Positions 2,950-25,775 of a stretch of DNA of 26,282 nt are shown here, piece by piece. The notes below the pieces were generated by a model. It did not search any database and was not told the origin of the DNA. It saw nothing but the letters and a program-made list of their open reading frames with translations. Every line of letters starts with the position of its first letter. Position 1 is the stretch's first letter. The translations under genes and the position numbers were made by a program. The stretch is from a virus. The stretch lies in IMG/VR virus record IMGVR_UViG_3300031707_000151, positions 1 to 26,282 of that record; one strand, written 5' to 3'.

Positions 2950-3947
2950 AGGGGCTCCGGCTCAGTAGGGGGCGTCGCCACACCTCTCAACCCCCCTATA
3001 GGGGGGCAAGGAGGTGCGCTCTCAGCGGCTTCCGGCTCGCCTTTGGCTTTCTTGGCAGCCTTCTGCTCAACCCAGGCCGATATGCGCTCCTTCGCCGCCA
3101 GTGGGGAAAGCTGTACCTCGGAGAGATCCATCGCCCCCAGGGCGGTCAGTACATCGAGGGTCTCCAGGGCGAAATAGGCGCAGGCGCCGGTCATAAACTC
3201 CGCCCATTTGGCCTCGCCCAACTCGCCCAGAGTAACCGTGTGCTTTTCGCTGGCGGGGGCCTCGGCTGGCGCGTCGGCGTTGACTCGCTCGGCCGCGACG
3301 ACCGTATCCAGGTGCGCCCGTTTCAGCGCCTCGAGCTCGAGGTCACGGATGCGCTCTAGCAAGCGGGCGTTATCGGCCTGCAGGCGCTCGATCTCCCCGC
3401 CCCCGTCCGCGATCTCATCCGCCGTGGCCATCACTTCCCCCGTGGGCCGCCGCAGCACTTCCGGGCAGAACTGGCGGATGTTGATCGAGGCCGCGCGATA
3501 GGTCAGCATGGTCTTGCGCCCCTGGCCGGCCCAGGTGGGCTTGATGCCGCTCTGCGTCTTGTGCCAGCCGGCAGCCTCGGCGTCCGCCCAGGTCACTGTC
3601 ACCGTGTTGGACTGCCCATCCCGCCGCGTGATGGTGACGGTCGCCTTTTCCATGGTCTGCTCGTCAAAGATCAGCCGGTGCCCCGCCCCGCGCAGGCGAG
3701 AGACCATCAACTGAGTCATCACCCCGATCCGGCCCCTGACCACATAGAAATCGTTCACGGCCTGAAACGGCGATATGCCGAACTCGCGTCCGGCGCAGGC
3801 GCAGAGGATCACCTTTTCCGGCGTGTCCAGGCCCTCCGGCACCAGCTTGTGCTGGATCATCGCCTGCGCCCACGCGAAGATGTCCTGTTCGGGGGCCATC
3901 AGGGCCGACATTTGCCTCGTTGCGGGAAGATTCGTTGTAGTACCCAT
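2937..3947 (-). CDS. recT: RecT-like single-strand annealing protein
   Basis: 336 residues from the ATG at 3947. The N-terminal 170 residues follow the RecT pattern. There is a helical start, then AGREFGISPFQAVNDFYVVRGRIG (about residues 52-75), where 'GISPFQA...VVRGR' is the conserved core, then LMVSRLRGAGHRLIF, a strand region, and finally RKTMLTYRAASINIRQFCPEVL, equivalent to the 'R-A-...-FPDVL' end of the fold. Residues 195-235 form a coiled coil (IERLQADNARLLERIRDLELEAL), and the tail is Ala/Glu/Pro-rich. RecT proteins anneal single strands in phage recombination and replication. A start at 4022 would read through a 12-bp hairpin and was not chosen. No RecE-like exonuclease is seen nearby. 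Confidence 0.6.
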   Translation of the reverse strand: MGTTTNLPATRQMSALMAPEQDIFAWAQAMIQHKLVPEGLDTPEKVILCACAGREFGISPFQAVNDFYVVRGRIGVMTQLMVSRLRGAGHRLIFDEQTMEKATVTITRRDGQSNTVTVTWADAEAAGWHKTQSGIKPTWAGQGRKTMLTYRAASINIRQFCPEVLRRPTGEVMATADEIADGGGEIERLQADNARLLERIRDLELEALKRAHLDTVVAAERVNADAPAEAPASEKHTVTLGELGEAKWAEFMTGACAYFALETLDVLTALGAMDLSEVQLSPLAAKERISAWVEQKAAKKAKGEPEAAESAPPCPPIGGLRGVATPPTEPEPLWPR

Positions 3948-6104: not shown

Positions 6105-6132
6105 TTGTACCACCGCTTTCTGATTTTGTCAA
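6104..6132 (-). promoter_or_regulatory. Leftward early promoter, near-consensus sigma-70
   Basis: On the minus strand TTGACA (6132-6127) and TACAAT (6109-6104) are separated by exactly 17 bases. Transcription would start near 6097 and read the RHH gene, the RecT-like gene and the replication genes. It lies between divergent repressor and early genes, as expected for the main lytic promoter of a temperate phage. Confidence 0.75.
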
Positions 6133-14710: not shown

Positions 14711-14738
14711 TTGACAAGCCTTTAGTTTGTGCTATACT
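14711..14738 (+). promoter_or_regulatory. tnpB promoter, near-consensus sigma-70
   Basis: TTGACA (14711-14716) and TATACT (14733-14738) are separated by 16 bases, just upstream of the tnpB ATG at 14745. With the start codon so close, the transcript would have a very short leader or be leaderless. It is carried within the inserted element. Confidence 0.6.
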
Positions 14739-14744
14739 GAAGCT

Positions 14745-15836
14745 ATGAAGCTGATTGCCCAGGTAAAACTGTTGCCGACTGAAGAACAAGCCGATGCCCT
14801 CAAGCGCACGGTGGAACGCGCCAACGCCGCTTGTGACTACCTGTCTCAACGCGCCTGGGATACCCGCACCTTCGGCCAGTACAGCCTTCACAAATTGGCT
14901 TACTACGATACCCGACGTGAGTTCCCCGACCTCTCGGCACAGATCGTCGTGCGCTGCATCGCTCGTGTTGCCGACGCCTACAAGCTGGATCGCAAGACCC
15001 CACGCGCCTTCAGGCCCTATAGCGCTATCACTTATGACGACCGCATCCTGCGCTGGTATGTCGGCAAGTCGGCAGTCTCGATCTGGACGGTGGCCGGTCG
15101 CCAGCATATCCCCTTCGTCTGTGGCGAGCGGCAGCGCGTCCTCTTGCAGACCCGCCAGGGTGAGGCTGATCTGACATTTGTTCAGGGCAAGTGGTACTTG
15201 CTGGCCACCTGCAACATTGAGGAATCGCCGGAGGTTGAGCCGACCGGATTCCTCGGCGTTGATCTGGGCATTGTCAACATTGCCACGACCAGTGATGGCG
15301 AGAATCACGCGGGCAACCACCTCAATAGTCTGCGCCATCGCCACGCCCGCCTTCGTGCAAAGCTGCAAGGTAAGGGAACCCAAGCAGCGCGTCGTCTGCT
15401 CAAGAAGCGCAGACGCAAAGAACAGCGCATGGCTCACCACGTCAACCACGTAATCTCCAAGAAAATTGTTGAGAAAGCCAAAGACACCGGGCGCGGAATT
15501 GCCCTTGAGAACCTTACGGGCATACGAGACCGGATAACGGTTCGCAAGGCTCAGCGGAGACAACATTCTTCTTGGAGCTTCTACGACTTGCGCCAGAAGA
15601 TCGAGTACAAGGCAAAGCTGGTTGGCATTCCCGTGATCCTGGTGGACCCCCGAAACACCAGTCGGACTTGTCCGATATGTGGTTGCATTGACAAACGAAA
15701 TCGTCCTACTCAAAGCCTTTTCTCCTGCGTATCTTGCGGGTATTCCGCGCCTGCTGATACTGTCGCGGCGAGCAACATTGCTCACCGGGCCACCGTAAAC
15801 TGGCCGCACTTCCCGGATACACGAACCGTCGTGTAG
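14745..15836 (+). CDS. tnpB: TnpB, RNA-guided endonuclease of an IS605-type element
   Basis: 363 residues, full length for the family. The RuvC-like motifs are in place: GVDLG with Asp173, ALENL with Glu255 and PADTVAASN with Asp338. The last normally reads (H/D)AD-x-N-A-A, so the Asn is Val here. A zinc ribbon lies between the last two: CPIC (309-312) and CVSC (328-331). Characterised TnpB proteins cut DNA using an RNA from the right end of their element. All catalytic acids are present, so it may be active. It is on the strand opposite to the phage operon and has its own promoter. No tnpA is nearby. Confidence 0.9.
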   Translation: MKLIAQVKLLPTEEQADALKRTVERANAACDYLSQRAWDTRTFGQYSLHKLAYYDTRREFPDLSAQIVVRCIARVADAYKLDRKTPRAFRPYSAITYDDRILRWYVGKSAVSIWTVAGRQHIPFVCGERQRVLLQTRQGEADLTFVQGKWYLLATCNIEESPEVEPTGFLGVDLGIVNIATTSDGENHAGNHLNSLRHRHARLRAKLQGKGTQAARRLLKKRRRKEQRMAHHVNHVISKKIVEKAKDTGRGIALENLTGIRDRITVRKAQRRQHSSWSFYDLRQKIEYKAKLVGIPVILVDPRNTSRTCPICGCIDKRNRPTQSLFSCVSCGYSAPADTVAASNIAHRATVNWPHFPDTRTVV

Positions 15837-21553: not shown

Positions 21554-21967
21554 TTAAGACTCCATCATAATGAGCTTTACCGTCACGATTCGCCCGTAGG
21601 CGTCCTGCTCGTTGCTCGCAATCGGCCCCGAGCATTCCGCCACCAACGTTCCGTAGCCTGCCACGACCAGCTTGTGCCGATGCAACAGCCCCCTCACCCG
21701 CTCCGCGATCTGCTCCACCGGCATCGCATCGCCGTCCGCCGCCGTATAACAGCGCACATCGCGCCAGATGCGCCGGCCCCTGTCTAACTTGGTGTCGAAG
21801 GACGTGTCAGTCACGTCGCCACTGCTCACCAGGTAGGGCAGCACCGCGTCGCCCGGCACCGGGTCAATGGTGAAGATCGCCGGCGCGCCCTCGTAAGAGG
21901 CCAGCATTCCCACCAGCGTCGGGTCACTGGACAGCCGGTCGTTCATCCCCTGAGTCAGTGCGTTCAA
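21554..21967 (-). CDS. Tail terminator/completion protein, DUF3168-like
   Basis: 137 residues. The start is a TTG at 21967 with AAGGA upstream; ATG 21946 is a shorter alternative that would lose the first helix. LSSDPTLVGMLASYEGAPAIF, then AVLPYLVSSGDVTDTSFDTK, then RDVRCYTAADGDAMPVEQIAERV follow the DUF3168 tail completion pattern. It caps the tube at the head-proximal end. Location before the tube gene fits. Confidence 0.65.
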   Translation of the reverse strand: MNALTQGMNDRLSSDPTLVGMLASYEGAPAIFTIDPVPGDAVLPYLVSSGDVTDTSFDTKLDRGRRIWRDVRCYTAADGDAMPVEQIAERVRGLLHRHKLVVAGYGTLVAECSGPIASNEQDAYGRIVTVKLIMMES

Positions 21968-21992
21968 CGAATCCGATCCTTCCCCTTAAGCA

Positions 21993-22064
21993 GGAAACGC
22001 CCCGTCATATGTGCGGTTCCGGCGCTATTTGCGCCGCTGTTACTCGCACAAAGCGGGGCGTTCC
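21993..22064 (-). promoter_or_regulatory. Three-level nested hairpin ahead of the tail genes
   Basis: Outer stem ACGCCCCG (21997-22004) with CGGGGCGT (22054-22061), extended by three more pairs. Middle stem GTGCG (22011-22015) with CGCAC (22045-22049). Inner stem CGGCGC (22020-22025), loop TATTT, GCGCCG (22031-22036). In the minus-strand transcript it lies about 26 bases upstream of the terminator-protein start. It may be a leader structure, processing site or attenuator between head and tail modules; no U-tract was seen. Confidence 0.55.
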
Positions 22065-22086
22065 AATGGACTGCCCAATTACGTTG

Positions 22087-22221
22087 TTAAGGCCGGTTCA
22101 GCTTCCTCAATTCAGCCGTCCGCGGCTGTATGTCTAGCATCCGCTCGATGGCGTCCAGGGCCATGAGAAGCGCCTGCCGAATCGCCATCCAGAACTCGCG
22201 GTCAGGCATTTGCCCAGTCAT
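22087..22221 (-). CDS. 44-residue helical protein of phage structural operons
   Basis: ATG at 22221 with GAGGG 8 bases upstream; TAA at 22089-22087. The peptide (PDREFWMAIRQALLMALDAIERML) is a strongly amphipathic helix of a kind often seen as a tiny ORF beside phage structural genes. Its function is unknown. It lies in the gap between neck protein and tail terminator genes, sharing DNA with the -35 of the opposite promoter. Confidence 0.5.
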   Translation of the reverse strand: MTGQMPDREFWMAIRQALLMALDAIERMLDIQPRTAELRKLNRP

Positions 22222-22224
22222 CTA

Positions 22225-22253
22225 TTGACCCTCAGTACCAGTTATGCTATAAT
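22225..22253 (+). promoter_or_regulatory. Consensus-like sigma-70 promoter facing the tRNA-like element
   Basis: TTGACC (22225-22230), a 17-base spacer and TATAAT (22248-22253), with the extended -10 TGC immediately before. It points away from the operon, on the plus strand. The predicted start is near 22260. The next 130 bases contain a GCGCG/CGCGC hairpin (22271-22286), a GGGGGG/CCTCCC hairpin (22292-22311) and then the tRNA-like element. Nothing else on this strand would need it. Confidence 0.7.
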
Positions 22254-22312
22254 GGTCCTTGGAGAGTAAGGCGCGATTTAACGCGCGTCCGGGGGGGCTT
22301 ATCAACCTCCCT

Positions 22313-22397
22313 AGGCAGGTCGTCCAATGGGTAGGACGCCGTGAAAAAGCTGATACCTGAAGTAACGGATATGCAGGTTCAAATCCTGTCCTGCGCC
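22313..22397 (+). ncRNA. tRNA-like element with a 22-nt anticodon loop
   Basis: Canonical pieces appear in the correct order: acceptor-like AGGCAGG (22313-22319) with CCTGCGC (22390-22396), T8, D stem GTCC/GGAC (22322-22325, 22334-22337) with loop AATGGGTA, T stem GCAGG/CCTGT (22373-22377, 22385-22389) with loop TTCAAAT. Acceptor pairs 1 and 2 (A-C, G-G) do not match. The anticodon stem is 4 bp, CCGT/ACGG (22339-22342, 22365-22368), with 22 bases in its loop and no U33 in place. It cannot decode as a normal tRNA without processing. It may be a remnant, a mimic or a spliced tRNA. Confidence 0.5.
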
Positions 22398-22424
22398 TCT
22401 CCTTATTTGTTCGCCTCAGTGCGT

Positions 22425-22814
22425 TCATCCCTTCCCCACAAACAAGCGCATGATTTCGGCGGCGTTGCCGAACACCGCCGGGCGCAGGAAGGGGTGCGCC
22501 GGGCGTGCAGGGATGCGCCGCCGCACAGTATGCCCGCTGACCGTGGTCGCTCCGCGCTCATAGCCACTCGTGCCCAACTCGACAAACCAGGCCCAGAACA
22601 CCTTCGCTTTCGCGCCGACGATGCACTCAATGGTCTCCCCATGCGCCTCGACCTTGTAGATGATGCTGCCCTTCAGGACACCCCGGCCGGGCGGCGCATT
22701 GGCCGAGGCCCGCTCCGCGCAGAACTGCCCGACGCGATCCATGCCGTCAAGGACCTTGGCAGAGATCCCGCGCTTGAACTTGTCCGCGTTCCAAGTGATC
22801 TTGACGCCGCTCAC
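22425..22814 (-). CDS. HK97 gp10-like head-tail joining/neck protein
   Basis: 129 residues, ATG 22814 overlapping the upstream stop as ATGA. AERASANAPPGRGVLKGSI (about residues 34-52), FWAWFVELGTSGYERG (about 72-87) and IPARPAHPFLRPAV (about 100-113) are the family signature (FVExGTS ... PAxPFLRPA). These proteins join the tail to the head. The order connector, closure, gp10, terminator, tube is the usual one. Confidence 0.8.
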   Translation of the reverse strand: MSGVKITWNADKFKRGISAKVLDGMDRVGQFCAERASANAPPGRGVLKGSIIYKVEAHGETIECIVGAKAKVFWAWFVELGTSGYERGATTVSGHTVRRRIPARPAHPFLRPAVFGNAAEIMRLFVGKG

Positions 22815-23158
22815 GACCCGACCTCCTTCGTGGGCTTCTGGATCTCCAGGCAGTCAATCTCCAAATGGTGATCCGCCCTGCTCGGCTCGCGCACGCCCTG
22901 CACTCGTACCGTCACCTCATCGCCCTCCACGGTGTCCTCGCGTTGGATGTCCGTCCCGGCCACAACGTACAGCACATGGCTGATCGCCCGCTCTAACTGG
23001 TCGGCCACATCGCGCTCGGAGCCGCCCGCCGGGCGCAATCGCCCGCGTATGGTGCCCAAGGGAGAGTAGGCGATTGCCCAACCTCCCTGGCCGTTGGGGA
23101 GGCGCACAGGACGCGACACGAGAAAGTCATTGTTCAAGAGGCTGGTAAAGATGCTCAC
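22811..23158 (-). CDS. Head closure protein (SPP1 gp16-like), putative
   Basis: 115 residues from a GTG at 23158, overlapping the previous stop as GTGA. FLVSRPVRLPNGQGGWAIAY, LGTIRGRLRPAGGSERDVADQ and VLYVVAGTDIQREDTVEGDEV fit the small beta-barrel head-tail joining family. A longer frame from 23437 overlaps the connector gene and is rejected. It lies between connector and gp10-like genes. Confidence 0.6.
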   Translation of the reverse strand: MSIFTSLLNNDFLVSRPVRLPNGQGGWAIAYSPLGTIRGRLRPAGGSERDVADQLERAISHVLYVVAGTDIQREDTVEGDEVTVRVQGVREPSRADHHLEIDCLEIQKPTKEVGS

Positions 23159-25092: not shown

Positions 25093-25775
25093 TGGCGATA
25101 CTCCTCTGGCGGCTCCAATGTGACCAGGTCCACCGGCTCGATCATGAGGCGCGTCCAGTTCTTCCCCGGCACCCGTATTGAATCTGGGCAGTAGTGCCAG
25201 GTGTAAACTCCCTTCAGGTATCCGACCTTCCCACCGATAGCATGAACATATTTTGCCTGCGTCTTGTTTGGCGACTTGCGGGATTTGCGATCGGTGAATA
25301 ATTGCGCCGTTTTCTCGAGCAGTGCCCGACGCATCGCCAGAAAGTGACCGCTTACGTAAGCCGAGTAGACTACCTCGCCATCGTCGGAGTAGGGATGCCG
25401 CGAGCCAGTCTTGTTATCGCCAGGGTTATTCAACCCGAGCATCATCAGCCTCGGGCGCGTCGCCATCGCCTCAAGTAGCTGCTGCAACCAGTCTGGATCG
25501 AGATGCGGGCAGAGTGCATCATCGTCCGTATAGATCACTGGGTCGGACTTGGATACCTTGGCCACGTCGATCAGGTTCTGGTGCATACCACCCCGCTTTT
25601 CGCGCCTGTGAAGACTCAACCCCAACGATTTGACGTAATCAGCGGTGCCATCTGTGCTCGCATCGTCTATGATGCTCAGGCGATAGGGCGTCGTTGTGCG
25701 CTCCTGGATACACTCGATGGTGCGCCGGAGCATCTCCAGCCGGTTGTGTGTGCCGATCACAATGTCAATGACCAC
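25077..25775 (-). CDS. GT2-type glycosyltransferase
   Basis: About 232 residues. The start chosen is GTG 25775 with AGGA 9 bases upstream; ATG 25793 would give 238 residues. Residues near the start, VIDIVIGTHNRLEMLRRTIE, are the GT-A nucleotide-binding strand and helix, and IYTDDDALCPHLDPDW (about residue 90) has the DxD metal motif. The end carries a SGHFLAMRRALLE acceptor-side segment. It shares structure and motifs with the truncated gene upstream, so the two arose by duplication. Target unknown: capsid, tail or host envelope. Confidence 0.7.
   Translation of the reverse strand: MVIDIVIGTHNRLEMLRRTIECIQERTTTPYRLSIIDDASTDGTADYVKSLGLSLHRREKRGGMHQNLIDVAKVSKSDPVIYTDDDALCPHLDPDWLQQLLEAMATRPRLMMLGLNNPGDNKTGSRHPYSDDGEVVYSAYVSGHFLAMRRALLEKTAQLFTDRKSRKSPNKTQAKYVHAIGGKVGYLKGVYTWHYCPDSIRVPGKNWTRLMIEPVDLVTLEPPEEYRQCRIL

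Follow-up and report, generated by a model that had tools for sequence, protein, structure and literature searches.

The locus described here lies in the window, i.e. the whole 26,282-bp stretch of viral DNA that was analysed (an IMG/VR virus record), in which the head and tail genes are on the minus strand. The virus is a siphophage that looks temperate; the closest GenBank capsids are about 41% identical and belong to Arthrobacter phages, and our capsid search found no close capsid relative encoded in any genome. A small cassette sits between two tail genes, and the features at this junction are as follows.

21554-21967 (-): tail-terminator-like gene, now with a TTG start (weak PHROG 176 match; alignment of relatives)
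21955-21966 (no strand): direct repeat copy 2, TCAGTGCGTTCA, where the tail-terminator gene now starts
21967-22415 (no strand): inserted cassette, unique part of 449 bp, with an empty site in relatives
21976-22086 (-): strong long hairpin region preceding the tail-terminator ribosome-binding site, with a 9-bp core stem (21996-22004/22054-22062)
22087-22221 (-): conserved 44-aa ORF, its ribosome-binding site overlapping the -35 box of the RNA promoter
22225-22253 (+): putative extended -10 promoter TTGACC-N17-TATAAT with TG at 22245-22246 (motif scan; identical in L002, a piece of a related contig)
22261-22402 (+): predicted RNA of about 142 nt, both ends predicted (fold and promoter)
22271-22286 and 22291-22312 (+): leader hairpins of the RNA (fold)
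22403-22411 (+): TTATTTGTT, a U-rich stretch beyond the closing stem
22416-22427 (no strand): direct repeat copy 1, TCAGTGCGTTCA, 12 bp, comprising the gp10 end and the original tail-terminator start
22425-22814 (-): HK97 gp10-like tail-component gene (Pfam PF04883)

The promoter proposed in the first-pass annotation (TTGACC, 17 bp, TATAAT with an extended -10) was borne out at 22225-22253 and stands far above chance, as promoter sites of the 11/12 class occur three times in the 26,282-bp record against an expectation of 0.05, all three with TG before the -10 box. As a sequence it is a credible promoter, from which transcription is predicted. The other two sites are at 14711, before a TnpB gene, and at 6132 on the minus strand, beside a repressor-like gene; no operator common to the cassette and the repressor region was seen. 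It may be noted that this gene for a TnpB-type RNA-guided nuclease (14711-15836, plus strand) lies amid the tail genes on the strand opposite to them, has its own near-consensus promoter (TTGACA-16-TATACT) and is likely another late insertion.

Downstream of the promoter, the tRNA model RF00005 gave the sole Rfam match within the window, scoring 34.2 bits (gathering score 29) with an E value of 2.2e-7 for the record. This agrees with the tRNA acceptor, D and T arms that had been read from the letters earlier. The parts of the domain are listed below.

22315-22394 (+): tRNA-like domain (Rfam RF00005, 34.2 bits)
22315-22319/22390-22394 (+): acceptor GCAGG/CCUGC of 5 bp, with 1-72 and 2-71 mismatched (G-G, A-C)
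22322-22337 (+): D arm GUCC/GGAC, complete
22339-22368 (+): anticodon-like arm with the 4-bp stem CCGU/ACGG and a 22-nt loop (22343-22364)
22373-22389 (+): T arm GCAGG/CCUGU with the loop UUCAAAU

As read from the sequence, the elbow positions are all canonical (U8, A14, A15-U48, G18, G19 and A21, and also G53-C61, U54, U55, C56, A57 as R57, and A58). A decoding tRNA requires an acceptor stem of 7 bp and an anticodon arm of 17 nt having a 7-nt loop and U33. Here the acceptor has 5 bp and then two mismatches, while the anticodon arm is 30 nt long, an excess of 13 nt, and therefore this is not a decoding tRNA. ARAGORN at its default threshold called no tRNA at the domain, also when introns of 0-60 nt were allowed, on which ground we rejected an intron-bearing tRNA; the spliced-tRNA role suggested earlier finds no support. 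At a lowered threshold the program reports a tRNA-Phe(GAA) in which positions 31 and 32 are separated by 13 inserted nt, but it then also makes clearly spurious calls, of tRNAs and a tmRNA on the other strand. The 22-nt length of the loop given in the first-pass annotation is correct, but its statement that U33 is absent hinges on the placement of the 13 extra nucleotides. Also, YUNNNRN should occur about once by chance in a loop of 22 nt. The sequences CCGU-GAA...AGUA-ACGG beside the anticodon stem could form a putative bulged-G (loop-E) motif. On searching the loop for an antisense seed, the best complement elsewhere in the window, at 25212 and on the non-coding strand, was 11 nt long, which is about chance level. 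A phage attachment site in a tRNA gene was set aside, the recombinase gene being about 14 kb off and the D arm complete.

The ends of the predicted RNA had been claimed to pair with each other. This holds for GGAGAG (22261-22266) and CUCUCC (22397-22402), an end-to-end stem with pair probabilities of 0.95-1.0, but less so for GGCGC (22270-22274) with GCGCC (22393-22397), as the fold prefers the competing local hairpin GCGCG/CGCGC at 22271-22286. The fold of 22262-22404 is more stable than its shuffles by 2.25 standard deviations. While the closing stem is supported by folding, the cloverleaf of the tRNA-like domain (-21.9 kcal/mol) is not the minimum-energy fold (-25.4 kcal/mol), and the partition function gives the D stem 93-98% but its acceptor, anticodon and T counterparts only 3-8%. 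The cloverleaf would need tertiary contacts and modifications, both of which are ignored by the energy calculation, and a three-dimensional tRNA fold of the domain is a prediction from its sequence.

Relatives were recovered via the gp10-like protein (9 loci) and by alignment of the tail-terminator protein (14 loci), many contigs being present in both sets. All contigs that show the junction, except one, have the empty site with the terminator gene directly at the gp10 end; the sole cassette-bearing relative among the recovered contigs is IMGVR_UViG_3300035688_000095, of which L002, L005, L012, L042 and L047 are pieces. The insertion amounts to 449 bp and one additional copy of the 12-bp direct repeat. 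A weak similarity of the repeats extends into the ribosome-binding site (CCTTCCCC), so the duplication may originally have exceeded 12 bp. The gp10 stop is unharmed by the insertion, which also provides the terminator gene with a new ribosome-binding site and with TTG as its start codon. Despite the direct repeat we found no terminal inverted repeats on the cassette, and a transposon, insertion sequence or MITE was rejected for want of inverted ends. As for the features of a moron, the cassette is missing from close relatives and has, judging by sequence, its own promoter, and a scan downstream of the RNA found no intrinsic terminator of its own.

The RNA gene forms one end of this recently inserted segment, its predicted 3′ end being 13 bp from the repeat. 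This place at the end of a repeat-flanked cassette, missing from nearly all relatives, escaped the first-pass annotation, which described the RNA as antisense to the structural operon; the direction is indeed opposite, but the RNA overlaps none of the structural genes and sits inside the inserted segment. The promoter might keep the late structural operon silent in a prophage, acting through antisense transcription or interference, with the tRNA-like part incidental, as a strong promoter opposing the operon and no terminator found after it would suggest. We hold this to be quite improbable, since no structural gene is overlapped, the tRNA-like body would be superfluous and nearly all relatives manage without the cassette.

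The cassette has two other elements. Comparison of the 44-aa ORF with its copy in L002/L005 showed 13 changed codons, of which 8 are synonymous, and it therefore looks like a real gene; a 71% relative is present in L013, an otherwise different phage contig. The hairpin region at 21976-22086 has a stability z of -4.4 and no Rfam match. In L013 the relative of the ORF is followed by GGGCAGTCCATNGGAACGCC and a hairpin (3195-3260) and then by a structural-type gene. Among viral contigs, exact GGGCAGTCCATNGGAACGCC was found, besides the window, only in the contigs of L002 and L013, and with its hairpin it has the look of a conserved leader RNA or of a processing site. Sites logged for GGGCAGTCCATNGGAACGCC are 21976-22086 (minus strand) in the window, L013:3195-3260 and L039:9522-9541. 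There was no tRNA-like match in the record of L013. In several relatives (L006, L007 and L009) an extra gene, beginning about VAALCSVEGCKRPARGRGMCSMHYKRWK, is found just after the tail-terminator gene and is missing from the window; by eye, it is zinc-finger or HNH-like. With this second extra gene, the operon seems to accept insertions at gene junctions.

To compare divergence we have two cassette copies, that of the window and that of IMGVR_UViG_3300035688_000095. Of the 181 sites in promoter plus RNA, 2 are different between them, as against 15 of the 135 in the ORF (p = 1.5e-4 by Fisher's test). Both differences in the RNA fall on variable tRNA loop positions (17 and 59), and the leader (22261-22314), promoter, arms and end-to-end stem are identical. 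This contrast suggests that the RNA is maintained, probably by purifying selection as far as two copies allow such a reading, though local recombination could contribute. The low divergence persists for 72 nt into gp10, where the empty-site phage L003 equals the cassette-bearing relative (97.2%), with identity falling to about 73% in the more distant part of gp10, and thus a recombination tract could explain part of the similarity of the RNA. The gp10-like gene is itself a mosaic, its last 72 nt being about 97% identical to some relatives and the rest about 73-78% (22418-22499 versus 22570-22831), and this identity break at the gp10 end points to recombination there.

These data bear on the main rival to the reading that we prefer below, namely a recent tRNA relic that was captured with its promoter from a source tRNA with a D arm of Glu/Gln type and then disabled by a 13-nt insertion and acceptor mismatches, so that it may be transcribed and yet inert. 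With 13 nt taken out, the anticodon arm is back at 17 nt and can be read as Phe(GAA), the acceptor mismatches are there, the unmodified RNA favours another fold, and it may be through recombination and not selection that the surrounding tract has diverged so little. Yet the elbow nucleotides, promoter and arms, and likewise the leader and the end-to-end stem, are unchanged in the second lineage while the neighbouring ORF has diverged by 11%. A relic is a possibility to be taken seriously, but we doubt it.

We tentatively prefer, with a probability of roughly 0.45, a tRNA-derived small RNA gene that does not decode, has a housekeeping-type promoter and was carried in by a recent moron-like cassette, with mimicry as the most likely mechanism. 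Sequence comparison directly supports the tRNA homology, the promoter sequence, the insertion and the presence in a second phage lineage; likewise, the core of the first-pass annotation, a promoter-driven tRNA-like RNA out of the ordinary, finds support in the Rfam match, the promoter and the near-identical copy elsewhere. RNA polymerase would start near 22261, and the transcript, with a length of at least about 142 nt, would have paired ends and a 3′ part that would keep the D-loop/T-loop elbow while its acceptor end and anticodon arm are altered. The tRNA elbow is a recognition feature for host tRNA-processing enzymes. It could be bound by a host tRNA-handling enzyme (for maturation, modification or cleavage), and the RNA would then occupy that enzyme. 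We judge tRNA mimicry to be the most likely function because an intact elbow is combined with changed decoding and charging ends. Phage tRNAs are increasingly viewed as tools against tRNA-cleaving defences. A more specific form of our reading, in which the RNA offers its elbow and enlarged anticodon loop to a host defence enzyme that cleaves tRNAs, serving as its decoy or inhibitor, and is hence a non-decoding counter-defence gene in a small mobile cassette, is unlikely as it stands.

The elbow also bears on a different proposal, that the tRNA-like part is a 3′ maturation or stability module for RNase P and RNase Z/E and that the product is the 54-nt leader with its two hairpins. Such enzymes recognise the tRNA elbow, no intrinsic terminator was found downstream and the leader (22261-22314) is identical in both copies; however, a 5-bp acceptor would be a poor substrate and the leader has no homologues in Rfam or other phages, which makes this proposal improbable. 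If the mimicry reading is true, a tRNA-derived RNA that does not decode, but has kept its elbow as well as its promoter, would set mimicry apart from codon supply, and the close relatives with and without the cassette offer a natural comparison. Also, the cassette shows how a small RNA gene may enter a packed structural operon, with the ribosome-binding site and start codon resupplied downstream.

On searching for similar genes, the RNA was found to have only arm-sized pieces in common with GenBank phages and plasmids, and the RNA pattern had no match in genome contigs. A gapped pattern for long-anticodon tRNA-like genes in phages matched 26 contigs, 21 of the matches being inside ARAGORN tRNAs. 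L037 is a tRNA-Ser missed by ARAGORN at default settings, L002 is the relative already known, and L016 and L023 are apparently tRNA fragments or chance matches. The remaining match, L014:1925-2045 (minus strand), combines a T arm with a 4-bp stem that encloses 22 nt and is itself closed by a stem of 14 bp; Rfam matches its T arm only, and it has no ARAGORN call and no clear homology to our RNA. This parallel may be coincidence, since the pattern selects such spacing. In this phage contig a flotillin-like gene is found downstream of the site.

Among known systems, tmRNA resembles this RNA in having a tRNA-like domain within a longer RNA, but tmRNAs are without a complete D arm, which is complete here. 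The tmRNA role raised earlier was rejected, there being no Rfam match, no tmRNA found by ARAGORN at default threshold and no tag reading frame. Domains resembling tRNA are also known from bacterial Y RNAs, one of which is a proposed competitive inhibitor of an anticodon nuclease (PMC7790460). As in the YrlA Y RNAs, paired ends close our RNA with a tRNA-like domain inside; it differs in its two additional leader hairpins. The other role raised earlier, that of a YrlA-like RNA, fared no better, as RF02553 gave no match at E <= 10. A divergent Y RNA whose closing stem binds Ro60 (Rsr), with the tRNA-like domain at the other end, would account for this architecture, but given the failed YrlA match and no Ro60/TROVE gene in this record or that of the relative, both partial, we regard it as very improbable.

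Phage-encoded tRNAs include ones with altered anticodon loops (PMC10264068), and the T5 tRNA-Lys acts against PARIS (PMC11455837). Like these, our RNA is a phage-borne tRNA homologue whose anticodon region is changed and whose elbow is kept. However, those tRNAs stay full and decoding (PMC10264068, PMC11455837), whereas this one has a short acceptor and 13 extra nucleotides in the anticodon arm and, unlike clustered phage tRNAs, is solitary with its own promoter. The cassette is also comparable to phage morons, which are small own-promoter cassettes between structural genes and missing from relatives, except that here the promoter would give a non-coding transcript that runs counter to the operon, the ORF lies on the opposite strand and a 12-bp duplication flanks the whole.
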